The notes under the pieces were generated by a model. It did not search any database. It was given only the letters and a program-made list of their open reading frames with translations, and had not been told where the DNA came from. A stretch of DNA of 64,000 nt, taken from Nitrospira sp. GTDB lineage: Bacteria > Nitrospirota > Nitrospiria > Nitrospirales > Nitrospiraceae. Positions 1,209 to 15,208 of the stretch are shown in pieces. Numbering within the stretch: the stretch's first letter is position 1; each line of letters opens with the position of its first letter. The stretch lies in contig JAFEBI010000004.1 of the NCBI GenBank assembly GCA_018242725.1, positions 62,001-126,000 on the forward strand, read 5' to 3'. The translations under genes and the position numbers were made by a program.

Positions 1209-1727
1209 TCAATCAGAAATCTCGTCTCGTGCAATCCGATCGTTCAAACGAATGTGCCTCGCCGACAACCGTGCGCCGATTGTGATCATCCCCAGCATTC
1301 TGGGCAGCGCAAAGCGTTTGGGACCGGCCGATCCCGGATTGAACAACAATGTATCGTCCAGCCATTCGTTCCTCGGTTGGTGAGTATGACCAAAGATACA
1401 GATGTTCGGTTGCATGCGATCAAGAAACGCGCTTCCCTCTTTGGTCAACTTTCCCCCTTCAAACATCACATGCCTGATCGCGATACGGACACCATTCAGC
1501 TTGAGGAGTGCCTCGATCGGAAAGCCACTCTTCTCATACCCGTCGACGTTGCCGGAAACCACCGTCACGGGGGCGATGCCTTTCAGATACTCGATGACTG
1601 CGCGCTTGCCGAAATCACCGGCGTGAACAATATGATCAACATGCTGGAAGTGCCGCAGGATTACCGGATCGAACAGGCCGTGCGTGTCGGCGATCACTCC
1701 GATACGAATGAGCCGTGACCGGCTCAC
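1209..1727 (-). CDS. YfcE/MJ0936-type metallophosphodiesterase
   Basis: A 172-residue calcineurin-like phosphoesterase. The metal-binding motifs occur in the expected order: DTHG near the N-terminus, HAGDFG, GNVDG, then GHTH and a closing NPGS. Members of this family hydrolyse phosphodiesters with Mn or Ni in the cytoplasm; the natural substrate is usually unknown. The start is taken as GTG 1725-1727 because it overlaps the stop of the upstream M48 peptidase gene in a GTGA arrangement, implying translational coupling. A longer reading to 1775 would add residues with no family counterpart. Confidence 0.85.
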   Translation of the reverse strand: MSRSRLIRIGVIADTHGLFDPVILRHFQHVDHIVHAGDFGKRAVIEYLKGIAPVTVVSGNVDGYEKSGFPIEALLKLNGVRIAIRHVMFEGGKLTKEGSAFLDRMQPNICIFGHTHQPRNEWLDDTLLFNPGSAGPKRFALPRMLGMITIGARLSARHIRLNDRIARDEISD

Positions 1728-2872
1728 GGAGCAGAGCCTGATGACACGCCTAATGCATCGCGAACCTTGGTCCATTCGAACGAGAACGGCTCAGACTGCT
1801 GCTTCGGCATCTCCGCGAGTCGCGCCTTGAGATGATCCGCTCTGGCACTGCTCATCGGATGGGTGGAGAGCCACTCGACTCGCCCCTCATCCTTCTCAGT
1901 CAGTCGTTGGAAGAACGTGATCATGCCTTCGGGGTGAATCTTGGCACGATACAGCAGATCAAGCCCGGTGGTATCCGCCTCGGTCTCCTGCGCTCGGCCA
2001 AACTTCAGCGTCATCAATTCAATGCCGAACTGCTTCATGGCCCCGCCCAGTCCCGGCGGATTGCCCAACACAATCGACACGACGGCCACAAAACCCAGCT
2101 GTTTAATGATCCGTTCAAGGCCATGCCGCCGGAGCACATGGTTCAGCTCATGCGCCAAGACCCCCGCCACTTCTTCCGGGCTTTCCGCCTTTTTCATCAA
2201 ACCCGTGAACACAACGACATACCCACCGGGTAGCGCGAACGCATTCACCACATCGCTCCTCACGACGGTGACATCAAATCGATAAGGGTTGTTGGGGACC
2301 TGACTGGCTAGGCGCTGTGTCATTTCCTTGACCGCATCCACAGCAATCCCTTCTTTCATCACATCCTGGCCCGCAAGAAACTCACGATAGGCCGATTCAC
2401 CCAACTTCTGTTCCCACTCGATGGGAATGCGATTGACGGCAAGTTCAACCAATACGTCACTCCCGAACCACAAGCCCAGTATCACAGCAAAGACTGTTCC
2501 GCCGACAAGTCCCCATACGAACCGATGGCGTTGCCGGACCTGTCGGACCTGTTCGGCGGCTTGCTCCAGTGGCCGGTTCAGATGGGCAGGAGCCGCTTGC
2601 CGAAAGGCGCGAATGAGTTCAGGGCTTTTCAAATACAGCGTCCGCTGCTCGACCGATCCCGACCAGGACGCAACAAGCTGGTTATGGTCTAATCCACCAG
2701 CAGAGATCGTCAGATCAGAAAACCCCACGGACTCAGTGTGACCCACAACACCTTCACGATCCGAGAGAAAGGTAATGGTCAGCCCCTGCCCTTCAACATG
2801 AACAAGACAAGGCGCACCACTGGCCGGGAATTCATCACCGAAGCAGAGCGCATTAGGTTGCAGTTCGATCAT
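1724..2872 (-). CDS. M48 family metalloprotease, membrane anchored
   Basis: A 382-residue Ste24/HtpX-like zinc peptidase. The catalytic motif HELNH is at residues 241-245 and the third ligand lies in ETEAD near residue 298. One transmembrane helix at about 118-137 separates an N-terminal beta-rich domain of about 115 residues from the peptidase domain, so the protease probably faces the periplasm and acts in envelope protein quality control. A second hydrophobic stretch after the HExxH helix (about 259-270) is typical of the fold. Its stop overlaps the start of the downstream phosphodiesterase gene. The substrate is unknown. Confidence 0.85.
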   Translation of the reverse strand: MIELQPNALCFGDEFPASGAPCLVHVEGQGLTITFLSDREGVVGHTESVGFSDLTISAGGLDHNQLVASWSGSVEQRTLYLKSPELIRAFRQAAPAHLNRPLEQAAEQVRQVRQRHRFVWGLVGGTVFAVILGLWFGSDVLVELAVNRIPIEWEQKLGESAYREFLAGQDVMKEGIAVDAVKEMTQRLASQVPNNPYRFDVTVVRSDVVNAFALPGGYVVVFTGLMKKAESPEEVAGVLAHELNHVLRRHGLERIIKQLGFVAVVSIVLGNPPGLGGAMKQFGIELMTLKFGRAQETEADTTGLDLLYRAKIHPEGMITFFQRLTEKDEGRVEWLSTHPMSSARADHLKARLAEMPKQQSEPFSFEWTKVRDALGVSSGSAP

Positions 2873-2915: not shown

Positions 2916-3084
2916 GCGGATGCTCAAACCGGCGGCCGACAAAGCCGCAGGCAAGAAACAATCGGAGGCGTAGCAGCTTTCACCCTCCCACCCCGAGCTG
3001 CCAAGACAGCTCCTTCCTCGCTTGGGGTACGTTGAGGATTGTTTTGAGCCGAGACCGAAGTTGGCGGGCGGTTTCAGCATCCGC
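2916..3084. repeat. Long imperfect palindrome (169 bp hairpin)
   Basis: The left arm 2916-2940 (GCGGATGCTCAAACCG...) and right arm 3060-3084 (...CGGTTTCAGCATCCGC) are near-perfect reverse complements over 25 bp. Pairing resumes inside around AAACAATC (left) and GATTGTTT (right). The apex is a perfect stem GAGCTG/CAGCTC with loop CCAAGA at 2996-3013. The element fills the gap between the AIM24-like gene and the M48 peptidase gene and begins at the AIM24 stop codon. Confidence 0.75.
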
Positions 3085-3767
3085 TATTCGGTGACAGGGA
3101 TGAACTGTCGTACCCACGCTCCGAAACCGCCGGGATTCCGACTCTGGATATACACCACGCCTGGACCACGGAACCGGCAGACAAAACCTTCGCCAGAGGT
3201 AAAGCTCGCCACCCATCCCGAAGTGGCTTTTTCGATGTTGTAGGACGTCGTCGTGGACCAGGCGACCAGATGACTATTGTCCACGATATATTCCTGCCCA
3301 GGTTTCAATTCGATCTTGTGAACCGCGCCAAAGCTGTTGAGCAGAAGCATCCCCTTCCCGCTCATCTTCAGAATGAAGAACCCTTCGCCACCCAGTAATC
3401 CCCGACTCATACTCTGCATCTGGCTGTCGATCGTAATCCCATCCGCCCCGGCTAAAAATCCATCTTTTTGCACCATGTATTCGTTGACCCCATCGAGTTC
3501 TAGCACAACAATTTCACCGGGCACCGTCGGAGCCAGTAAGACCTCCCCAGCCCCTCGACTCGCCTTGAGTGTCTGGAAGAAGAACTTTTCTCCTGTCAGG
3601 AATTTTCGCGAAAGGGCTCCCAGAAATCCCCCTTCCATTTTGCTTTCAATGTCGATCGTCGGCGAGCAGGCCACCATCGCACCCGACTCCGCCTTGATCT
3701 GCTCTCCATTTCCCAACTCCACACGCGCCATAGGAAATGCCCCGGGATACAAGATCTCGCTTTTCAT
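3084..3767 (-). CDS. AIM24 / TIGR00266 family protein
   Basis: A 227-residue protein of the AIM24 (TIGR00266) family. It has the usual Gly-rich beta repeats: ESGAMVACSP, GGFLGALSRKFLTGEKFF, GLLGGEGFFILKMSGKG and LKPGQEYIVDNSHLVAW. No signal peptide or membrane helix is visible. Bacterial members have no settled biochemical function; the yeast namesake is mitochondrial. The ATG at 3767 is preceded by GAGGAG. The gene is 43 bp downstream of the amidohydrolase gene on the same strand, so the two may be co-transcribed. Its 3' end touches the long palindrome. Confidence 0.85.
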   Translation of the reverse strand: MKSEILYPGAFPMARVELGNGEQIKAESGAMVACSPTIDIESKMEGGFLGALSRKFLTGEKFFFQTLKASRGAGEVLLAPTVPGEIVVLELDGVNEYMVQKDGFLAGADGITIDSQMQSMSRGLLGGEGFFILKMSGKGMLLLNSFGAVHKIELKPGQEYIVDNSHLVAWSTTTSYNIEKATSGWVASFTSGEGFVCRFRGPGVVYIQSRNPGGFGAWVRQFIPVTE

Positions 3768-3810: not shown

Positions 3811-5256
3811 TCACTCCGCCACCCATCCATACACTCGCCGACTCGGCTCAGGCCCCTCTTGCACATAACTCATCCTGAGCCGCCCTAAGATATCAGTGGG
3901 AAGTTCATGCCGTTTTGCCTCAACATTGATCCCAAAGACTCTTGCCGCATTCAGCCCAAAAACCTGCTCTTTCACTGATCTCGTGAGTGGCTGATAGTGA
4001 TGCGTTTCGAGTAATTCCTCGGGAATCATGAATCGCCGAAAGGCTTCAATTTGCCATTGGGGTGTTCCATACCAGATCGAATCCGTCCCCCACAAGACGT
4101 GATCGACGCCGAACGCACGAATGATTCGTCCCAGCAGATGGGCACAGATCAATGGATAGGTGGTCACCAATTGGGCAAACGTCGACCCCAACTCCATATA
4201 GATGTTGGAGATATCTGGCTCTCCCTCCTTCAATCGGCAGAATTCGGTGGTCCAGGGAATTTCACCCGTTTTCGCAAACACCTGATCGATCGATGCGACG
4301 CCTCGAAACCCCGAGTGATAGACCAAAAAGTCGAGATCCGGAAAATCCTTGGCCGCCTTCATCAAATCTCTCGGGTGATTGTAATCAGGTACAGGACCCA
4401 ACGGCAGTCCCTTGTGAACACAGATCCGCTTGACGTGAAGCTTTCTCGCTTGCTCAAGCATGGGATAGGCGATCCGCTCGTCATCCATCCGCCAGCCACG
4501 ATCGAATCCCTTCGGACAGGACCCGGTGTAGCACTTCCAGGCGTCAACCTTAAGCGTTTCAGCCTGCATGGCCATGAAGTCCAAATCCGCAGCGCCCAAC
4601 TGAGGCGTCACCAGACCATGGGCCAACATCCGTTGTGAGCCGGCTAATCGATTGATCTCGTCTCGGATATGGGCCATTTCTTTTGGTGGAACGACGGCTT
4701 CTTGTGGATAGGGACCAGGCGGCGTGCTGATCAAGCCGATCGTCGTTTCACTGTCAAAGAAGACTTCCTTGATGAAATTCTTCCAGGACAAATCATCAAT
4801 GGTGCCTCGATCACCGGCCAATCGTGGATTGAGCCCGGACTCGCGAATAGACCGCCGTAGCGACAGCAACGCGTGCTTGGACACGGCGCCCTTGCGATTT
4901 GCTTCCGCATCGGTAGGATCGTAGCTGGATCCGACATAGTGAGTTTGTACGTCGAAGATAAAATAGGGAGCGCCCCCTTGTTCCGCGAACGCCGCAGTCT
5001 CGAAGAGCTCGATGTCTCCAATGTTGAAAAATCTGCCGAATGCAGCGTTCACGGCCAACAGCGCCGCCGCCATTCCACCCGTTGCGTTCAAGAACTCTCG
5101 CCTGGTCAGTCCGCTACGAGTCACCGCCCGTTCCATCAAGTCTGCGGCCACTCGCTCGACACATTGCTGCTGCCTCGTCTGGGGAATGGGGCGGAACTCT
5201 TCGTTCGAGACGATCTGCGTCGGAATTCGAGTCGGACAGACCACACCCTTCTTCAC
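3811..5256 (-). CDS. Tat-exported amidohydrolase-2 family protein
   Basis: A 481-residue TIM-barrel amidohydrolase (amidohydrolase_2 family). Residues about 49-73 form a Tat-type signal (LTRREFLNATGG then a hydrophobic core), so the enzyme is probably exported folded. The first metal motif, normally HxH, reads FDVQTH, leaving only one histidine; later motifs are present (HKGLP, VYHSG, WGTDSIWYG). A divergent metal site is possible. The GTG start at 5256 is kept because the 40 residues before the Tat motif look like a conserved extension of this exported subfamily; ATG 5136 is the alternative. A TTGACA-17-CACAAT promoter lies upstream, and a 13-codon ORF ends across the start codon. The substrate is unknown. 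Confidence 0.75.
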   Translation of the reverse strand: MKKGVVCPTRIPTQIVSNEEFRPIPQTRQQQCVERVAADLMERAVTRSGLTRREFLNATGGMAAALLAVNAAFGRFFNIGDIELFETAAFAEQGGAPYFIFDVQTHYVGSSYDPTDAEANRKGAVSKHALLSLRRSIRESGLNPRLAGDRGTIDDLSWKNFIKEVFFDSETTIGLISTPPGPYPQEAVVPPKEMAHIRDEINRLAGSQRMLAHGLVTPQLGAADLDFMAMQAETLKVDAWKCYTGSCPKGFDRGWRMDDERIAYPMLEQARKLHVKRICVHKGLPLGPVPDYNHPRDLMKAAKDFPDLDFLVYHSGFRGVASIDQVFAKTGEIPWTTEFCRLKEGEPDISNIYMELGSTFAQLVTTYPLICAHLLGRIIRAFGVDHVLWGTDSIWYGTPQWQIEAFRRFMIPEELLETHHYQPLTRSVKEQVFGLNAARVFGINVEAKRHELPTDILGRLRMSYVQEGPEPSRRVYGWVAE

Positions 5257-5394: not shown

Positions 5395-8300
5395 TTATTT
5401 CGAGTTCGATGAGGAAGCTGAGGTTTTAGCTTGGCCAGCAGAAGAATATGCAGCAGGGATCTCTACAACCACATCTCCTTGCGGATCGGCATCTTGATCC
5501 TTCCCATCGTGGCCGACACTGTAAAGCAGGCCCTTTTTCTGATTCACCAACATCGGGAGGCCAGTATAGGGATCGTAGAAGTTCTGTCCCGCTTTGGCGA
5601 TCTTGTTGGGAAGATCACCCTCTGAAGATCCACGTCGTAACCACGCCTGTAAACTCGCCAGCCTGAGATGGGCGTCTGTATCCACCATCATTCCGTTGTA
5701 CACATCCCATGCGGGCAGCGGGTCAAGACCGACCAGATTTTCGATCGGGTTGGTGAGATAATCCATCACGCCAGCCGCAGGAAAACGTACATGATCTTTC
5801 CACTTCGGCAGGGAATCATAATGCTTTTCGCCGACCGCTTGGTACGACGCTTCGTAGTACGTGGCATAGTCATTAAGCCGGCGCTGCTTCGGTAAGGGCA
5901 GTGCCGACACCACCATCGAGGATATTGCCTGATCTTCAGCTCTCGCGGCCTTTAACTGACTCTCGTAGGTCTTCCCTGCTGAAACCAATTCGCTCTGCAT
6001 CGGCCACCGTAACGACAGCTCAGCTTGATCGAGAGGTCGTACAAACTTGGTGATACGCCCTAGATGTTTCGTGTCGAAATCCGAACGAACGAGCAAGCCC
6101 GATGCGAGGGCAATGTCGTCATTGACCGCTTGCAATGCCAACATTTTCACAGGGAGTGTCCGTGCCTGGCTCAGCACGACTCGCCACATTTCCATGTCGG
6201 TTTCAAGCCGATCGACACCGACGTCCGTCCCCTGTGCAAATCCATCTGCGACATGCAGTTGATGGGCGAACGCCATCGCTTCGCAGGGTGGGCTGATAGG
6301 CTGACCGTAGCCCCAATCCTCGAATGGAAGCTTTTGCCATTGACGATATCGGTCAAGCGTCGCCTGATGTCGGCTCCCCCATCCTTGGATAGTCTCCTGA
6401 TGCGATTTGAATTGGCCGATTGGGTCCGATCCTCGGACCCATCCGCGCATGGTGCCGCCGGACGCACTCGATCGGTCACCTGTTTTTGATCCAGAAGTTC
6501 CAAAGCAACTCAACGCCGTTGCACTGTCTCCGATAGCCGATTGCCTCTGACCCTCAGCGCGGAGAGGATCTTGTCCCGCCGGCGCATCGATCCCAAGCAG
6601 CAGCGTATACGCATTCTTTTGAGCCCCAAAGAGGGTCTGTTGTGGCGTCGTTGTGAAACTCTGGAACGTCGGTGATGGAGGTTCTTCCATGATCATCCAT
6701 GTCAGCGCAAGCGCTCCGAGACCAAGCGCGATGCACACCCCGATCAGCATCGTCAGCCCGACCACCGTCCTTACAATGGCCTGAGTGGTCGAAAAGCAGA
6801 CACGTAGGAAGCCTAGGATCGTTATCCCCGCCCTAGTAAAAATTGCCGTAGACTCTTGGCCCTGCGCTGGTTCGTTAATACGCGGTCTCGCCTCAGGCGT
6901 CCTCCTGATCCTCGAAGATTCGACGAATACGGCATCAGTCTCGGACGTCGCCGGCAGCGGCTGGCTGACTTCCTGCCGTTCAAGAATCACCGGTTTCGCT
7001 GATGTGACGGAGGTGACAACATGCTCTCGACCCGCTCCCGTCAGGTTATCAACCTCCATCCGCTCTGGTTGAGGAAGCATGGGTTCAGGAATCGGCGTTC
7101 GTGCTTGAACGTTCACCACCTCCGGAGGCTGATCGCCGTGAGGCAATACCCTTGCCCCTCGCTGAGTCTCGGGCAAGCGCTCACCATTGTCTATGATGGG
7201 CTTCGTCGGACTTGGTTCAATTGGATCAAGCTCAACAGGTCGAATCGTCTCGCTTTTCTCGAGGAGGACCAAGTTGACAGGTTGCGAATCATGCGCCTGA
7301 AATTCCGTCTTGAAACCTTGCTCGATCTCATCAGTAACTGCACTGGGGTGGGGCTGCTCTCGCTTGATGGCAAACTCGGTCGGTTGATCACAAATTTCGT
7401 GCTGATCCACGACCGAGCCTGGACTCGAGTCCTGGGTACAGGCTTGAGCCACAGATTCCTGTAACGCAGGAGATTCCGCTTCGTCGGCCTGCGATGATTG
7501 TACGAAGGAAAACAGCGGCGCTGACTCCGCGACCCGCTCTGTACCTTGGTCCGTCGTGGACGGCGAGCCCACCCCCACTGCAGAATCGTGCCGCTCCTCC
7601 GAGTGCCCTGTTGGGACAGCTTGTGCGAACGAAAATGTGTCCTGCTCTAAATCAGGCTCCTTAGTCGATGGTGAAGGCGGCCGGTGACTCTCATGAGCTT
7701 GTAGAGAGCTATCCGGATCTTGTGACTGATCCACGGATTGTTCGAGAGGCTCCGCCGCAATTAAAGAGTTCGTCTCGACGGAAGCGATTGAGTGCACCGA
7801 CTCCTCCACCTGATCCCATGGCATGGGTGCAATCGGCGATCTCGACGTTTCTTCATCTACTTTCCCACTTTCTCCCTCTCGCTTCGGAGTTTCTACGGCA
7901 GAAGCCTCAACCAGCCCTCCTGGCGAAGATGAGACTGGGGAAGTGTCTGCAATAGTCCCTTCCAAGCAAGTCGGCGCCGGGGACGTTGACACATCCTTTG
8001 CCGGAGATTGCTCTCCGAACTTCCAGGCTGTATCAAAGACGGATTTCCATGAAAACCCTGGCTGCTTCCAAGGCTGAACTGTCTCATCGGCCAAGACTGG
8101 GGCCGGATCGATTGGCGAATCAGCGGAACAGGGCTTCTCTTCTGCTTGCAGCCGCTCGACCTCATCGGTCGGTAGAGAGGCTTCCTCTTTGTTTGAGCCC
8201 AATATCGGCTCGGAAAGTGATGACTCTGTCCGGACCGATGAACTGGGCTCTTGGTCAGTCTGAGGCTGGGATGGCAGGCTGGGCTCGGTGCTATCCTCGG

Positions 8301-9498
8301 AGAAGGTTCTGGAAGGGTCGACTGTCTGTTCCGAATCCACCCTTATCGCTCCGGATGGAGGACGGTCTGTTGTTACTGCTGTTGCCTCTGCAACTTCAGG
8401 TGAGACCGGCTCCGGTGCTTGGAGCAAGACAGAATCGGCATCCACCACATCTCGATGCGCTTCCGACGACGCCACAGAGATCGCGGTTTGGGATTCTTCG
8501 GAGCTGAGAGAAGGAAGAGAATCCCCAGCCACCTCCCGTTCTGCTGCGAGCTGACTGACCTCTGCTACCGCTAGAACGTCTCCAACCTCTTGGATGGAGC
8601 TTTCCGCCTGTCGGTCAGTTTGAACTTCGATGACGATCGGTTCTCCCTCGGCAGCGTGAAGCTCCCGCGACCGGTCTAGACTGTGCTCAGAGGACTGAAC
8701 TTGTTGCGGGGAATCAGCACGGTGTTCTGACTGCTCAGCTGGTTGTGCAATGTCACGTGGATGCGACGTCTCACCCGATGGCTCCACCTCCGCAGGGGAA
8801 ACCTGGACTTCCCATGGCATCATTCCATCCGCTCCAGAAGAAGCGGCCTGTTCCCCCGAATCTTCGCCAAGGACGTCTTGATGTAGCACGGGGTCTGTCT
8901 CGGGGGCGCTCGATTGCCGTGCCACTAATCGGCCGGTTTCCGCGTCAAAAAACGAGGCCAAACGAAACGCCACAGGGCTCGCCGGGGCCAATTCTCGTAT
9001 TTTCGAATAGAGTTGCCCGGCATGATCCGGACGCTCGGGATCCGGATCTTCGATTAAGATATCGACGGCCTTCCCGTACTCTTCGACGGCCTCAAGAACA
9101 TTTCCTTTTTCCTGATAGATCGTTCCAAGTTTCTCAAGGTAGGGCACACAGCGCGGACCGGCGGCGAGATACTCACGGAGTAAGGATTCTGCCAACCAGT
9201 AGTCTTGGCGCTGAAAGGCTTCGGTAATCAGGGAGTCAAAGGCTTCTCTTGCCGGGATGAGGCTTCCCAATCGAAGATGGAGGGTCGCGAAAAGCCGTCG
9301 CGCCTCCATGTTTACTGGATCGAGAGCCAGCAGTTCTTTGAGCGCAGTGGATGACCGGCCGTACTTTCCCGCGTTCATTTGGGTGATCGCTTCTTCCAGC
9401 AGCGCACTCTTCCTGCTGTACCCAACCACCCCGCGCTTCGGTGTACGAACCGTCTCCGTCTTATCTGATTTTGTTGAGGCTTTCTTATTCCATCGCAC
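5395..9498 (-). CDS. TPR protein with long disordered acidic region and one membrane segment
   Basis: A 1367-residue protein of unrecognised function. Residues about 30-175 hold tetratricopeptide-like repeats (AGKYGRSSTALKELLALDP...). Residues about 190-880 are rich in Ser, Glu, Pro, Gln and Asp and look intrinsically disordered. A strongly hydrophobic stretch near residues 890-940 is the only membrane segment. The last ~430 residues look globular and would be periplasmic if the TPR end is cytoplasmic. The C-terminus has YDPYTGLPMLV then LYSVGHDGKDQD, reminiscent of the metal-binding tail of major pseudopilins such as GspG. The arrangement recalls FimV-like scaffolds with domain order reversed. 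GTG 9498 has AAGG seven bases upstream. It is divergent from a secretin gene, suggesting a joint envelope role. Confidence 0.7.
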   Translation of the reverse strand: MRWNKKASTKSDKTETVRTPKRGVVGYSRKSALLEEAITQMNAGKYGRSSTALKELLALDPVNMEARRLFATLHLRLGSLIPAREAFDSLITEAFQRQDYWLAESLLREYLAAGPRCVPYLEKLGTIYQEKGNVLEAVEEYGKAVDILIEDPDPERPDHAGQLYSKIRELAPASPVAFRLASFFDAETGRLVARQSSAPETDPVLHQDVLGEDSGEQAASSGADGMMPWEVQVSPAEVEPSGETSHPRDIAQPAEQSEHRADSPQQVQSSEHSLDRSRELHAAEGEPIVIEVQTDRQAESSIQEVGDVLAVAEVSQLAAEREVAGDSLPSLSSEESQTAISVASSEAHRDVVDADSVLLQAPEPVSPEVAEATAVTTDRPPSGAIRVDSEQTVDPSRTFSEDSTEPSLPSQPQTDQEPSSSVRTESSLSEPILGSNKEEASLPTDEVERLQAEEKPCSADSPIDPAPVLADETVQPWKQPGFSWKSVFDTAWKFGEQSPAKDVSTSPAPTCLEGTIADTSPVSSSPGGLVEASAVETPKREGESGKVDEETSRSPIAPMPWDQVEESVHSIASVETNSLIAAEPLEQSVDQSQDPDSSLQAHESHRPPSPSTKEPDLEQDTFSFAQAVPTGHSEERHDSAVGVGSPSTTDQGTERVAESAPLFSFVQSSQADEAESPALQESVAQACTQDSSPGSVVDQHEICDQPTEFAIKREQPHPSAVTDEIEQGFKTEFQAHDSQPVNLVLLEKSETIRPVELDPIEPSPTKPIIDNGERLPETQRGARVLPHGDQPPEVVNVQARTPIPEPMLPQPERMEVDNLTGAGREHVVTSVTSAKPVILERQEVSQPLPATSETDAVFVESSRIRRTPEARPRINEPAQGQESTAIFTRAGITILGFLRVCFSTTQAIVRTVVGLTMLIGVCIALGLGALALTWMIMEEPPSPTFQSFTTTPQQTLFGAQKNAYTLLLGIDAPAGQDPLRAEGQRQSAIGDSATALSCFGTSGSKTGDRSSASGGTMRGWVRGSDPIGQFKSHQETIQGWGSRHQATLDRYRQWQKLPFEDWGYGQPISPPCEAMAFAHQLHVADGFAQGTDVGVDRLETDMEMWRVVLSQARTLPVKMLALQAVNDDIALASGLLVRSDFDTKHLGRITKFVRPLDQAELSLRWPMQSELVSAGKTYESQLKAARAEDQAISSMVVSALPLPKQRRLNDYATYYEASYQAVGEKHYDSLPKWKDHVRFPAAGVMDYLTNPIENLVGLDPLPAWDVYNGMMVDTDAHLRLASLQAWLRRGSSEGDLPNKIAKAGQNFYDPYTGLPMLVNQKKGLLYSVGHDGKDQDADPQGDVVVEIPAAYSSAGQAKTSASSSNSK

Positions 9499-9949: not shown

Positions 9950-11653
9950 GTGATCGGGATCGAATTGCCACAAAATGTAATCCTGGTTGTGTCCTTGGAT
10001 CTGCCTATGGTACGGTCAAACTCAATCGCTCAGTTTCAAGAAAACCACGGAATTTCTAGCTCCATCGTGCAATTTCATTCAGGCCTAACACCCGCCTTAC
10101 CCACAGCCAAACGGATGAGCACCTACCTGGTTGGAGCGCTCCTCTGCTGGTCGACCCTCGTTCCATCGCACCTGTTTGCGCAGGGAACTGGCTCGCAACC
10201 GGCCAAGGTGTCCCTTGATTTCAACGAAATTGATATTCCAGTCTTTGCCAGGTTCATTGGGGAACTCACCGGCAAAAACTTTGTGCTGGACGAAACCATC
10301 AAGAAACAAGGGGGGAAAATATCTGCGTTTTCCCCGACCAAGGTTACTCCGGACCAGGCATTCAGCATGTTTGTGGCCGCACTGGAAGCCGCTCGCATCG
10401 CGGTCGTGAAGAAAGAGGGAAATCTCTATCAAATTGTACCGATGGGCGATCTCCCGCCTGAGCGGGGTGTGTTTGTCTACAAGCTCAAACACGCCAACGC
10501 CACAGATCTTGCTGCGGTTCTCACCAACTTGGTGGCCCGCTCACAAACTGTGGCTCAAATCACACCAGGAGTTCGGCCTCCGATCAGACCACTGACGGAA
10601 TTTGAAGCCCCGGTCCAGGTGTTTGCCGACAAGGCCACAAACTCCATTATCGTCAGCTCAACCAAAAATGCATGGACTCACATCCATGCCGTGATTCGCG
10701 ATCTTGATGTACGACGAAAGCAGGTCTTTGTCGAAGCCGTCATTTTGGAGGTCCAAGTCGATCGGCTCAGACAAATCGGCACGGACCCAGTCCAAGTCCT
10801 CGGTGGCGGGATAAAGGATTCATTTACAGGGTTCGGAGGCATCAACAACACACCACCGGATTTCTCCGCTATCGCCCAGGCCATCACAGGTGCTTCTACT
10901 GCTGCAGCAACAGGCGGCACATCGCTGTTGCTCAAATCAGCCAATGTCCGTGCCTTCTTGAACTTGCTGATGAACATGACCGATACCAATATCCTATCGA
11001 CGCCTCAAGTTCTTGCGGCCGACAATCAGAAAGCTAAAATCGTTGTCGGTGAAAATCGGCCATTCCCAACCGGACAAGCCCAAGGCATCACCGGCGGAAC
11101 TCTGGTGACGATCGAACGGAAAGACGTTGGTGTCACATTAGAATTGACACCCCAAGTATTGGAAGATGATTTGATTCGGCTCGAAATCAAGCAAGAGATT
11201 ACCGCGATCGCGGAGAATGTTGCACAAACGATCGGGGCTGGCTCAGCCAGCATCCCCGTAGGCCCCACCACCACCAAGCGATCCATGGAGACAACAACCA
11301 TCGCTCAGGACCAACAGACACTCGTTGTCGGAGGATTAGTGCGCGACAACATTACATTGAGCGAAAAGAAGATCCCCCTCTTGGGGGATATTCCATGGCT
11401 TGGGTGGTTGTTTAAGTCACAGAATCGTCAGACCGAGAAGTTGAATCTTCTGGTGTTTCTGACTCCTCACTTAGTTCGAGATGACGCGGACATGGTCGAG
11501 CTGAACGCAAGGAAAGCCCGTGATGTCAACTCCTTACAACGCGACAATCGGATCGAGGAACCGACCAAACTCAAACTGGAGATACTCGAACGTCTCGAGC
11601 AGCCTTCGTTAGTTCCCCAAGTCCCCCTTATCGATAAGTCCAGCAAGCCTTAA
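9950..11653 (+). CDS. Secretin (GspD-like, single N1 repeat)
   Basis: A secretin subunit that would form an outer-membrane secretion pore. After a hydrophobic export signal (about residues 56-78, ending SHLFAQG) come an N0 domain (VSLDFNEIDIPVFARFIGEL...), one N1 domain (FVYKLKHANATDLAAVLTNL to RKQVFVEAVILEVQVD) and the C-terminal secretin domain (VGENRPFPTG, VGVTLELTPQV, VVGGLVRDN, IPLLGDIPWLGWLF, LLVFLTPHLV). Typical GspD has three N1-type repeats, so this is a short form. No other type II secretion or pilus genes are nearby. The start is uncertain: GTG 9950, ATG 10007 and ATG 10115 are all in frame. 10115 sits directly before the hydrophobic signal but lacks a good ribosome-binding site and loses the preceding KR. 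Confidence 0.82.
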   Translation: MIGIELPQNVILVVSLDLPMVRSNSIAQFQENHGISSSIVQFHSGLTPALPTAKRMSTYLVGALLCWSTLVPSHLFAQGTGSQPAKVSLDFNEIDIPVFARFIGELTGKNFVLDETIKKQGGKISAFSPTKVTPDQAFSMFVAALEAARIAVVKKEGNLYQIVPMGDLPPERGVFVYKLKHANATDLAAVLTNLVARSQTVAQITPGVRPPIRPLTEFEAPVQVFADKATNSIIVSSTKNAWTHIHAVIRDLDVRRKQVFVEAVILEVQVDRLRQIGTDPVQVLGGGIKDSFTGFGGINNTPPDFSAIAQAITGASTAAATGGTSLLLKSANVRAFLNLLMNMTDTNILSTPQVLAADNQKAKIVVGENRPFPTGQAQGITGGTLVTIERKDVGVTLELTPQVLEDDLIRLEIKQEITAIAENVAQTIGAGSASIPVGPTTTKRSMETTTIAQDQQTLVVGGLVRDNITLSEKKIPLLGDIPWLGWLFKSQNRQTEKLNLLVFLTPHLVRDDADMVELNARKARDVNSLQRDNRIEEPTKLKLEILERLEQPSLVPQVPLIDKSSKP

Positions 11654-11814
11654 CCTGCATCCAGATCAAGATACGCTTTGCGTACGATGCTTCATCAGGC
11701 TTACCTGGATATCACTACTATCAGACTTCTATGCCCCCCCTCGGAGGAATGGTCCCTCGCTCTCCTCCTGACTATGCTGCATCTCTATGGATGATAACCC
11801 AGGAGGACGGACCG

Positions 11815-12156
11815 ATGGCTGACACAATCGTAAACTGGCGAATCCATCCTCGGCTTTCCGTTACCTATCCGGTGATCTTTGGAGGTGCTCCGTTTGTCGG
11901 AGAAGGAGTAGTCTCGGACCTCTCCCTGACCGGCTGTTCAGTACACTGTGATCGAACCGTTCTGATGGGCAGCTATGTGAAGTTGAGCGTCCTATTGCCA
12001 GACCCCACCGCATCCCTGTTCATCGAGCTCGGGAAGGTTCGATGGGTGAAGCGAAATACTTTCGGTGTAGAGTTCATCCGATTGGCAACGCTCACTCGAC
12101 ATCGCCTGGATCGAGTGATGTCCCAAGAGGCGAACCCTTTTCTAGTACCCGCCTAA
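11815..12156 (+). CDS. PilZ domain protein
   Basis: A 113-residue stand-alone PilZ domain, the family that binds cyclic di-GMP and relays it by protein contact. The binding motifs are visible: RIHPR near the N-terminus (RxxxR) and DLSLTG (D/NxSxxG) about 30 residues later. ATG 11815 is chosen because AGGAGG lies eight bases upstream; the frame is open to 11731 but that extension is not family-like. It follows the secretin gene by about 160 bp on the same strand, so it may be co-regulated with it. Confidence 0.85.
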   Translation: MADTIVNWRIHPRLSVTYPVIFGGAPFVGEGVVSDLSLTGCSVHCDRTVLMGSYVKLSVLLPDPTASLFIELGKVRWVKRNTFGVEFIRLATLTRHRLDRVMSQEANPFLVPA

Positions 12157-12324: not shown

Positions 12325-13179
12325 CTATGGCTTGATGTCAAAGTGAATGGACATGCCCGCATGCGCAAAGATCGTATCCACCGTGGATTCATAACGATTC
12401 ACAATAAGTTCCCCTGAAAACAAAGGACCCGTAAAGGCTGGGCCGGACCTATTGAACCGATCCGTCGTCAGCCCGTCGTGACTGGAATGGATGTACTTCG
12501 CCTCAGCAAACACAGAGACGTACTTGAAGAGATGCGCCTTGATACCTCCCACTCCCATAAACGCGATCGTCGTATCCCGTTCTTCGGTGATGGCACGAAG
12601 AAAACCCGTCCCCTGTTGTCCACCGGGTCGCATCGCCATCTGATGCGCACCCACGCCGATTCCTACGTACGGGAACCATCGCCCGTTAGGATAGGCTTCG
12701 GAAATCGCCATGGGGTAGCGAACGAGGAAATTAGAGCCGACATAGATCCCCTGTATCTCCGTCGTGTTGCCTCCATTCGCGGGAGTAAAATTATAATTTT
12801 CCCTACAGCAGGCCACGTCCGCATACCAAATAAAGCCGCTGATTTCCACACCGAGATCGAATCCCGCCAATTTGTTTCTGGTCGGAAACCAGATCCCCGC
12901 GTTGCCTCCGACCGAGTGTTTTGTCTGGTAATCGATGTCCTTGACCACCCTCGGCGTCGTCCCGTCGGTAAAGGTCGCGTCCGCACTGCGGGGAATCGCT
13001 ATGCCCGCCATAAAGGACAGATAGGGCTCAAGCGTTCCGGAGGACATGGTTGGAGGATCAGCAGACGATATCGCATAGGGATCGGCGACCCGCTGGCTAG
13101 ACGAATCACCCGCTCGGGTAATATCCGCAAAACCGAGGACGCAGAGGAGACAAATCACCCCCGAAATTCTTGCTTTCAT
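12325..13179 (-). CDS. Outer-membrane beta-barrel protein, tandem paralogue 3
   Basis: A 284-residue exported protein, the promoter-distal of three tandem paralogues. The signal peptide is MKARISGVICLLCVLGFADITRA. The mature part has amphipathic strands and landmarks shared with its neighbours: LEPYLSFMAG, GGNAGIWFPTRNKL, the Cys pair DVACCR, FLVRYPMAIS, PNGRWFPYVGIGVGAHQM and a C-terminal HFDIKP. It is probably an outer-membrane barrel; the family is not recognised beyond that. A GGGAGG ribosome-binding site precedes the ATG. The three copies and their leaders arose by tandem duplication. Confidence 0.78.
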   Translation of the reverse strand: MKARISGVICLLCVLGFADITRAGDSSSQRVADPYAISSADPPTMSSGTLEPYLSFMAGIAIPRSADATFTDGTTPRVVKDIDYQTKHSVGGNAGIWFPTRNKLAGFDLGVEISGFIWYADVACCRENYNFTPANGGNTTEIQGIYVGSNFLVRYPMAISEAYPNGRWFPYVGIGVGAHQMAMRPGGQQGTGFLRAITEERDTTIAFMGVGGIKAHLFKYVSVFAEAKYIHSSHDGLTTDRFNRSGPAFTGPLFSGELIVNRYESTVDTIFAHAGMSIHFDIKP

Positions 13180-13315
13180 TCATCGTCCTCCCAAGGTAAA
13201 GCAACCATCTGCTGCGAGGAGCTTGAGTTGCAAAATCTGAGATCCATCAGTCGCCTGTCAGTGAGGCACGGCGAATGCGAGTGCGTCTGCGTAGAACTCA
13301 ATTCACCCCCCAATC

Positions 13316-14191
13316 CTACGGCTTCCAGTCAAAGTGAAATGACAAGCCCGCATGCACAAGGATCGTATTGATCGTGGAGGAATAAGGATTCACAAAAGGA
13401 CCTGGCGTACCTATGAATAGACTGCCATCTGGGGAGTTTCCGAACCGATCCGACGACAGGCCGTTGTGATGGGCATAAAGATACTTCGCCTCAGCAAACG
13501 CCGCCACGTACTTGAAGAGATGCGCCTTGAATCCTCCTACTGCTTGAAACCCGATCGTCGTATCCCGTTGGGTGGTGATGGCGCTTGTAAGAGTCCCCCC
13601 CCGGAATCCACCGGGCTTCATCCCGAGCTGGTGCGCTCCCACGCCGATCCCAACGTACGGATGCCACCGCCCGTTGGGATAGACCTCGGAAATCGCCATG
13701 GGGTAGCGAATCAGGAAATTGGGACCGACGTAGACGCCATCGACTTCAGTCGTGGTACCGCGATTGGCGATTCCATTCACTTGCTGTGCTCCCGTAGGAT
13801 CATTATTAAAAAAGTCCCGACAGCAGGCCACGTCCGGATACCACACATAGCCGGTGATTTCCACGCCGAGATCGAATCCCCACAACTTGTTTCTGGTTGG
13901 AAACCAGATCCCCGCACTACCTCCCCATGATTGTTTCATCTGATAATCGACATTTTTGACCACTGTCGGCTGGGTCCCGTCCTGAAACGTGGCATCCTGG
14001 CTGAATGGAATCGCCACACCCGCCATAACGGAAAAATAGGGCTCCAGCGTCCCGGAGGACATGGTCGGGAGATCAGGCGATAGGGCATAGGGATCGGCGA
14101 CCCGCTGACTGTACGGATCATCCGCCCTGGCGAACCCCGCGGATCCAAGGACACAGAGGAGACACAGCATCGCCGAAATTCTCGCTTTCAT
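13316..14191 (-). CDS. Outer-membrane beta-barrel protein, tandem paralogue 2
   Basis: A 291-residue paralogue of the genes on either side, with signal peptide MKARISAMLCLLCVLGSAGFARA. It keeps GIWFPTRNKLWGFDLGVEI, the CCRDFF Cys pair, the PMAISEVYPNGRWHPYVGIG segment and a C-terminal FHFDWKP. It differs by an insertion after the Cys pair (NDPTGAQQVNGIANRG) and in the last loops (NSPDGSLFIGTPGPFVNPYS), as expected for exposed loops under change. It probably sits in the outer membrane; no ligand or function can be inferred. It shares the conserved leader block with its neighbours. Confidence 0.78.
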   Translation of the reverse strand: MKARISAMLCLLCVLGSAGFARADDPYSQRVADPYALSPDLPTMSSGTLEPYFSVMAGVAIPFSQDATFQDGTQPTVVKNVDYQMKQSWGGSAGIWFPTRNKLWGFDLGVEITGYVWYPDVACCRDFFNNDPTGAQQVNGIANRGTTTEVDGVYVGPNFLIRYPMAISEVYPNGRWHPYVGIGVGAHQLGMKPGGFRGGTLTSAITTQRDTTIGFQAVGGFKAHLFKYVAAFAEAKYLYAHHNGLSSDRFGNSPDGSLFIGTPGPFVNPYSSTINTILVHAGLSFHFDWKP

Positions 14192-14326
14192 TCAGCGTCC
14201 TCCCACGGTAAAGCAACCATCTTCTGCGACGAATATGAGTTATACAATCTGAGATCCATCAGTTTTCCATCAATGGTCACGGCAACGATCCGGGGCGAGT
14301 GTATCTGCGCACTACTCGGCTCGACC

Positions 14327-15208
14327 CTACGGCTTCCAGTCAAAGTGCAGCGACAAGCCCGCATGCACAAAGATCGTGTCGATCGAAGATGAATATTGGT
14401 TAAGAAAGAGAGTGCTTCCTCCCGTCGTTGGCAACGTGGGGCCTACGGACTGCCCGAACCGATCCGTCAACATCCCGTCGTGATGGGCTTGGAGATACTT
14501 CGCCTCTACAAAAAAAGCCAGATACTTGAAGAGGTGTGCCTTGACGCCTCCCACTGCCTGCCACCCGACCGTCGTATCTCGTTGGTCTGGAATGGGGTTC
14601 GCCTCTAAATTGCCCCCCGGCTGACAACAGGCACTCACTCCCCGGGATCCACCTGGCCTCATCGCCATCTGATGCATGCCCACGCCGATCCCGACGTATG
14701 GAAACCACCGCCCGTTGGGATAGGCCTCTGATATCGCCATGGGGTAGCGAATCAGAAAATTAGGGCCGATGTAGAGGCCTTGGATCTCAGTCGTGGTGCC
14801 GTTACCCGTTGCGGGATCACGATTGTAATTGTTCTGACAGCAGCCCACGTCCGCTTGCCAAAGGAATCCGGTGAGCTCCATGCCAAGATCGAAACCCCAC
14901 AACTTGTTTCTGGTTGGAAACCAGATTCCCAAGTTACCCCCGAGAGAAAAATTATTTCTATATTCGACATCCTTAACCACGCGAGGCGATGTCCCATCCG
15001 TAAACGTGGCGTCTTCACCGCGTGTCAGTGCCACGCCCGTCATAAAGGATAAATAGAGCTCAGGCGTCCCTGAAGAGATAGTTGGAGGATCGGGCGAGAG
15101 CGCATAGGGATCGGCGACTCGTTGGCTATAGGGATCTTCCGCCCGGGTGAGATCCGCAGAGCCGAGGACACAGAGGAGACACATCATCGCCGAAATTCTT
15201 GCTTTCAT
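14327..15208 (-). CDS. Outer-membrane beta-barrel protein, tandem paralogue 1
   Basis: A 293-residue paralogue and the first of the three in transcription order. The signal peptide is MKARISAMMCLLCVLGSADLTRA. It shares NLGIWFPTRNKLWGFDLGME, the CCQNNY Cys pair, FLIRYPMAISEAYPNGRWFP and the ending SLHFDWKP. A Cys-containing insertion (SACCQPGGNLEANPIPDQ) appears in a loop near two thirds of the length and is absent from the other two. The 530 bp upstream should contain the cluster promoter. Function is unknown; outer-membrane location is inferred from barrel-like strands and the signal peptide. Confidence 0.78.
   Translation of the reverse strand: MKARISAMMCLLCVLGSADLTRAEDPYSQRVADPYALSPDPPTISSGTPELYLSFMTGVALTRGEDATFTDGTSPRVVKDVEYRNNFSLGGNLGIWFPTRNKLWGFDLGMELTGFLWQADVGCCQNNYNRDPATGNGTTTEIQGLYIGPNFLIRYPMAISEAYPNGRWFPYVGIGVGMHQMAMRPGGSRGVSACCQPGGNLEANPIPDQRDTTVGWQAVGGVKAHLFKYLAFFVEAKYLQAHHDGMLTDRFGQSVGPTLPTTGGSTLFLNQYSSSIDTIFVHAGLSLHFDWKP

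Follow-up and report, generated by a model that had tools for sequence, protein, structure and literature searches.

The subject of this analysis is a large gene and the secretin gene that diverges from it, both within a stretch of 64,000 nucleotides of a Nitrospira sp. genome (genome G000, contig C29:62001-126000), referred to below as the window. Nitrospira are dominant nitrite oxidisers and comammox organisms, for which hardly any genetics is available. The open reading frame (ORF) at 5395-9498 on the minus strand starts with a GTG codon and encodes a product of 1367 amino acids (aa), the N-terminus of which (M/V-R-x-D/N-K-K) recurs in orthologues. This product, hereafter the long form, consists of a tetratricopeptide repeat (TPR) domain, an acidic linker, a transmembrane (TM) helix and a C-terminal domain (CTD). 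The features of the two genes are as follows:

5395-9498, minus strand: the whole gene of the long form (TPR, acidic linker, TM helix, periplasmic CTD), 1367 aa
8944-9417, minus strand: cytoplasmic TPR domain, aa 28-185 (Pfam TPR_16; AlphaFold predicted local distance difference test, pLDDT, ~97; PDB neighbours)
6859-8943, minus strand: acidic low-complexity linker, aa 186-880 (by composition)
8809-8820, minus strand: linker motif copy 1, MPWE, aa 227-230
8014-8055, minus strand: second linker motif FSWKSVFDTAWKFG, aa 482-495
7801-7830, minus strand: linker motif copy 2, APMPWDQVEE, aa 557-566
6691-6780, minus strand: single TM helix, aa ~907-936 (hydrophobicity, charge pattern in orthologues)
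5437-6681, minus strand: predicted periplasmic CTD of an unnamed family, aa 940-1354
5461-5577, minus strand: conserved tail YDPYTGLPM...LYSVGHDGKDQD...DVVV, aa 1308-1346
9950-11653, plus strand: GspD-type secretin, divergent from the long form (Pfam, NCBIfam)

The N-terminal domain is a member of the TPR superfamily, since it both exceeds the profile cut-off (Pfam TPR_16, two stretches, 35.1 bits vs a cut-off of 32.7) and has the helical-hairpin fold, which was modelled by AlphaFold with a pLDDT of 94-98 over residues ~31-190. Its structural neighbours in the PDB are consensus TPRs (CTPR) and MamA, with PilF lower. It is the most conserved part of the protein, with 52-85% identity across genera vs 39-70% for the CTD. 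The linker (aa 186-880) contains 18.7% Asp/Glu and 6.7% Lys/Arg, has a net charge of -84 and only 2.7% aromatic residues; among orthologues its composition is kept, not its sequence, and its length varies from 263 to 1066 aa. Judging by this composition, the low conservation and a pLDDT of ~50 in the modelled stretch, the linker is probably disordered. Only one strong hydrophobic segment (~907-937) was found in the long form, and in 48 of 50 non-redundant orthologues Lys and Arg are more numerous in the 30 residues ahead of the helix than behind it. The positive-inside rule thus places the N-terminus on the cytoplasmic and the C-terminus on the periplasmic side. The last ~430 residues are confidently predicted to fold into a mostly helical domain that ends in three short strands (pLDDT 85.7, predicted template modelling score 0.87). 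The architecture read from the sequence in the initial annotation, namely TPR, acidic linker, one membrane span and a globular C-terminus, is thus borne out by Pfam, composition, charge pattern and AlphaFold, and its remark that this domain order fits no known family agrees with the absence of any corresponding Pfam or NCBIfam family beyond TPR.

The CTD has no relative in Pfam, NCBIfam, PHROG or PDB sequences, and a Foldseek search against the PDB gave nothing at E<=0.001, the only matches being helical solenoids with a template modelling score of about 0.16. It is an unnamed, mostly helical domain, not a pseudopilin, and represents an undescribed, predicted periplasmic domain of family-wide occurrence. 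Its distribution was searched within the phylum Nitrospirota, where most genomes are draft assemblies and absences are therefore provisional. Matches were found in 135 of the 147 Nitrospiraceae genomes; outside this family, three genomes of the phylum gave weak but significant distant matches (best E 1.4e-11), which are open frames of 447-492 aa in two other families. A tblastn search of plasmids with the CTD and with a distant homologue gave no match. Proteins with a CTD-like region and a tail of the type DPF.G.P...YSVGP.G.DDGG may exist in further phyla as well. In Nitrospiraceae the CTD comes in two forms. Complete copies of the long one measure about 920-1740 aa; the other is a short paralogue of about 470-490 aa, which consists of a TM helix and a CTD that is homologous throughout (about 30-38% identity), but lacks the TPR and the linker.

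The divergent neighbour of the long form is a GspD-type secretin, as noted initially. The Pfam families Secretin, Secretin_N and GspD N0 were all found above cut-off, while the score of TIGR02517 (GspD) was 341 bits, below its cut-off of 351; the true start is likely the Met codon at about 10115, where the signal peptide begins. The genes gspC, E, F and G, further pseudopilin genes, and the L, M and K genes of a type II secretion system (T2SS) lie together on another contig of the genome (C6), and gspD was not found in the stretch read of that cluster. Most likely, the secretin of the window is the GspD of this canonical T2SS. As the PF03934 (GspK) profile also hits unrelated ORFs of ~810-865 aa and many control genomes, only hits of ~316 aa were used as the GspK marker. 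Conservation of the gene pair in relatives, which had been suggested as a check, is extensive: gspD is adjacent to and divergent from the long form in 70 of the 73 genomes with both genes on one contig (the exceptions are G012, G021 and G077). This adjacency is confined to a clade of four genera, g1, g2, g9 and g16, i.e. the genus of the window and three sister genera. In G012 (g12) gspC and gspD are within the T2SS region, and in G002 and G021 gspD is located beside gspC, away from the long form. On the CTD tree, these positions are most simply explained by a single relocation of gspD in the ancestor of g1/g2/g9/g16. The long-form ORF is not a product of chance: syntenic orthologues occur family-wide.

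Two linker motifs, APMPW[DE]Q[VI][EQ]E and FSWxx[IV]F, were newly found. In 50 non-redundant linkers (from proteins with CTDs under 85% identical), MPW[DE] occurs in 104 copies, distributed over 45 of the 50, vs 0.125 (maximum 2) in shuffled sequences. Shuffling is a control for composition only, and common descent accounts for part of the motif count. FSWxx[IV]F-like motifs are present in 37 of the 50 (shuffles 0.01). Copies located past the first 70 linker residues have the consensus A-P-M-P-W-[DE]-Q-[VI]-[EQ]-E (n=76), and the consensus of the copy directly following the TPR is looser (n=36). The number of copies, however, ranges from 1 to 5, as would be expected if the motif itself had been duplicated or selected. 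Within G000, the pattern MPW[DE]Q[VI] was found only in the long form. The first of the two motifs follows GspG: of 75 full-length long forms, 13 are from genomes without GspG, and 8 of these 13 lack the motif, as does 1 of the 62 from genomes with GspG; at the genus level it is absent in 5/5 without GspG and present in 9/9 with it. On the tree this corresponds mainly to one joint gain of motif and GspG, the basal genera g4, g5, g8, g10, g17 and g22 having neither, and to one joint loss in G009, G088 and G094, in which the linkers also shrink to ~300 aa. The link between the motifs and GspG-type systems is suggestive only.

Similar sets of parts are found in known landmark or scaffold proteins, FimV/HubP and PodJ, which position envelope machines or help to assemble them. 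FimV/HubP are composed of a LysM-like domain in the periplasm, a single TM helix, a cytoplasmic part that is acidic and unstructured (and contains repeats in HubP), and a TPR domain, which is regarded as the principal interface for clients (PMC12918733). Loss of FimV results in fewer multimers of the PilQ secretin and in the delocalisation of PilO/PilQ (PMC5285504). In PodJ, a cytoplasmic scaffold at the N-terminus, which includes a disordered region, is followed by one TM helix and a C-terminus in the periplasm (PMC9684454). The long form shares with FimV/HubP the single TM helix, the long, acidic and variable linker, the TPR domain, both predicted to be cytoplasmic, and a periplasmic domain, but in the reverse order, with the TPR at the N-terminus and the periplasmic domain at the C-terminus, and with a periplasmic domain of another family in place of LysM. 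With PodJ it has in common that the N-terminal part is cytoplasmic and includes a disordered region, that there is one TM helix and that the C-terminus is periplasmic, whereas PodJ contains cytoplasmic coiled coils as well as periplasmic repeats and a peptidoglycan-binding domain, and the long form contains a cytoplasmic TPR and linker and a CTD that matches no known family. Since neither LysM nor coiled coils with a peptidoglycan-binding domain were found, the long form belongs to neither the FimV nor the PodJ family. Its NCBIfam matches included no FimV model; a FimV_core search of 20 genomes gave none, though the controls gave no match either.

It is quite possible, if short of probable, that the long form is an inner-membrane hub or tether of the FimV/HubP/PodJ type. 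The reasons are that its TPR domain is confidently folded and most conserved, that the linker is acidic and variable in length as in HubP/FimV, that the linker motifs are repeated and follow GspG on the tree, and that gspD adjoins the gene, with the effect of FimV loss on the PilQ secretin as a precedent. In such a hub, conceivably a polar one, the TPR domain and the Trp-centred linker motifs would bind clients in the cytoplasm or the membrane, the one helix would serve as the anchor, and the CTD would fix the protein to a periplasmic partner or to a site in the envelope. In g1, g2, g9 and g16 GspD would be a likely client or co-regulated partner. Several observations weigh against a hub. Pfam and NCBIfam scans revealed neither LysM (E<=1) nor any other known domain for peptidoglycan binding in the CTD. 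In three genomes (G018, G075, G083) four motifs are present although GspG was not found, G140 is the opposite case, and canonical GspD and GspK are mostly missing in g18 and g14, where GspG is encoded in a different GspE/GspF-like cluster. The Fisher tests of the association between motif and GspG are not independent, because they reflect about two evolutionary events. Finally, motif copy 1 was left undocked on the TPR in the AlphaFold model, where its pLDDT of ~50 gives no support for docking and would not disprove it. If the hub interpretation is correct, large membrane hubs with a TPR and an acidic linker would have arisen more than once, with opposite domain orders. The fuller proposal of a new class of hubs that evolved in Nitrospirota apart from FimV/HubP, with a TPR and a disordered tether, multivalent Trp motifs that recruit T2SS-type machinery and hence vary with the machines a genome has, and a periplasmic anchor of new fold, is rather unlikely.

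A closer bond to secretion was suggested in the initial annotation, which proposed a tether or scaffold for an unusual secretion or surface apparatus. The scaffold fits the anatomy, while a dedicated part of the machine is contradicted by co-occurrence in both directions. With the GspG profile and similarity to the GspD of the window as criteria for the presence of a T2SS, the long form was found in genomes without a detected GspG or a close relative of GspD (G009, G088, G094, G010, G017 and G032, of which G009 is 99% complete, as well as other, less complete ones), and G031, rated 100% complete, contains GspD and GspG and has the CTD only in the short form. The long form is therefore not an obligate part of the T2SS, and its assignment as a dedicated T2SS assembly factor or GspD tether is distinctly unlikely, even though the divergent neighbourhood in 70 of the 73 genomes, the relocation of gspD beside it and the correlation of motifs with GspG would fit. 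The possibility that the CTD substitutes for GspC, the inner-membrane protein known to partner the N0 domain of GspD (PMC3169554), was considered for an orphan GspD and rejected: gspC is present in the T2SS cluster of the same genome (C6:104070-104969), and thus there is no gap for the CTD to fill. The tail had also been likened to the calcium-binding C-terminus of GspG-type pseudopilins. The sequence concerned, YSVGHDGKDQD, is present and conserved: the 38 sequences from Nitrospiraceae all have Y387, S388, G390, D395 and D403 (CTD numbering), and DPYTGLPM...LYSVGHDGKDQDADPQGDVVV does resemble the C-terminus of the GspG of G000 itself, DPWGNPYKY...YEVTSLGTDGEVGGEGVNADI. The tail pattern DP....P...(L/I)YSxGxDG....D, the order of a helix followed by three short strands at the end of the CTD, and the fact that hhalign aligns precisely this motif with Nitrospirota GspG all favour a pseudopilin-derived protein, the tail of which would assemble or bind calcium as in GspG. 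Yet the alignment covers only the 19-residue YSxGxDG...D motif (E 0.15, probability 0.4%), the T2SSG profile (PF08334) gave no match to any tail sequence, there is no fold match in the PDB, and the distant Nitrospirota homologues end in ...PMQWDGKKRCIYFNGMS..., without the GspG-like loop. A prepilin leader (GFTxxE and a hydrophobic N-terminal helix) is absent from the long form, while a genuine GspG with such a leader is encoded elsewhere in the genome. Homology was thus rejected and a resemblance at the motif level retained; a pseudopilin origin is hardly credible.

The remaining alternative comes from the other genes that flank the pair:

3811-5256, minus strand: amidohydrolase with a Tat-like N-terminus, first gene downstream of the long form
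3084-3767, minus strand: AIM24-family protein, downstream
1724-2872, minus strand: M48 metalloprotease, downstream
1209-1775, minus strand: metallophosphoesterase-like gene, downstream (named from its sequence; synteny)
11731-12156, plus strand: PilZ-domain protein downstream of the secretin, kept there in the genus

At least one of the four genes downstream of the long form is kept at 23 of 26 long-form loci (AIM24 at 20 of 26), including those of the T2SS-negative basal genera g4, g17 and g22, and these genes are older partners of the long form than gspD. With 78-95% identity between Nitrospiraceae genera, AIM24 is much better conserved than the genes around it. The long form might then be a scaffold for envelope quality control or stress, with the four genes as old partners and the secretin as a later, incidental neighbour, as would be consistent with the restriction of GspD adjacency to g1, g2, g9 and g16 and with the existence of long forms without a T2SS. 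The evidence for this role is synteny; at the locus in G009 (L037) none of the four genes lies within the 6 kb read, and yet the full-length protein is kept, and the motifs that track GspG are left unexplained. Such an envelope-maintenance scaffold tied to AIM24 and M48 is doubtful but nearly as likely as the hub. The motif peptides and the TPR domain as bait offer handles on these interpretations, as do the natural motif losses in G009, G088 and G094 for comparison.

Several minor observations concern related proteins and neighbouring genes. A 662-aa TPR protein of the same genome (contig C17; L189:7712-9700, minus strand) is partly similar to the TPR domain of the long form (30% identity). 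In the genera g14 and g18, the region about 4-7 kb upstream of the long form contains at least two genes with a PilZ domain (L042, L045, L046, L070). Three tandem paralogous secreted proteins of 284-293 aa, with MKARIS... signal peptides and possibly forming beta-barrels, are encoded at 12325-15208 on the minus strand of the window; the one tested had no Pfam match, and relatives adjoin the PilZ gene elsewhere in the genus. A separate cluster of GspE-, GspF- and GspG-like genes, its GspG being about 60% identical, is present at L250, L251 and L252 (G030, G014 and G064), in genera mostly lacking canonical GspD and GspK; it also contains small PilM/N/O-like membrane proteins and may be a T2SS- or MSHA-like variant.

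The gene of the short paralogue is divergent from a btuF-C-D-B type cobalamin-uptake cluster (loci L053-L066 and L156-L161). BtuB-, BtuD- and BtuF-like genes were found near 16 of 18 scanned short-form loci, and BtuC-like genes near 15. Cobalamin riboswitches are present in all five short-form loci scanned; the one closest to the short gene faces btuF, not the short gene. The CTD thus adjoins a TonB-dependent uptake system in its short form and a secretin in its long form.

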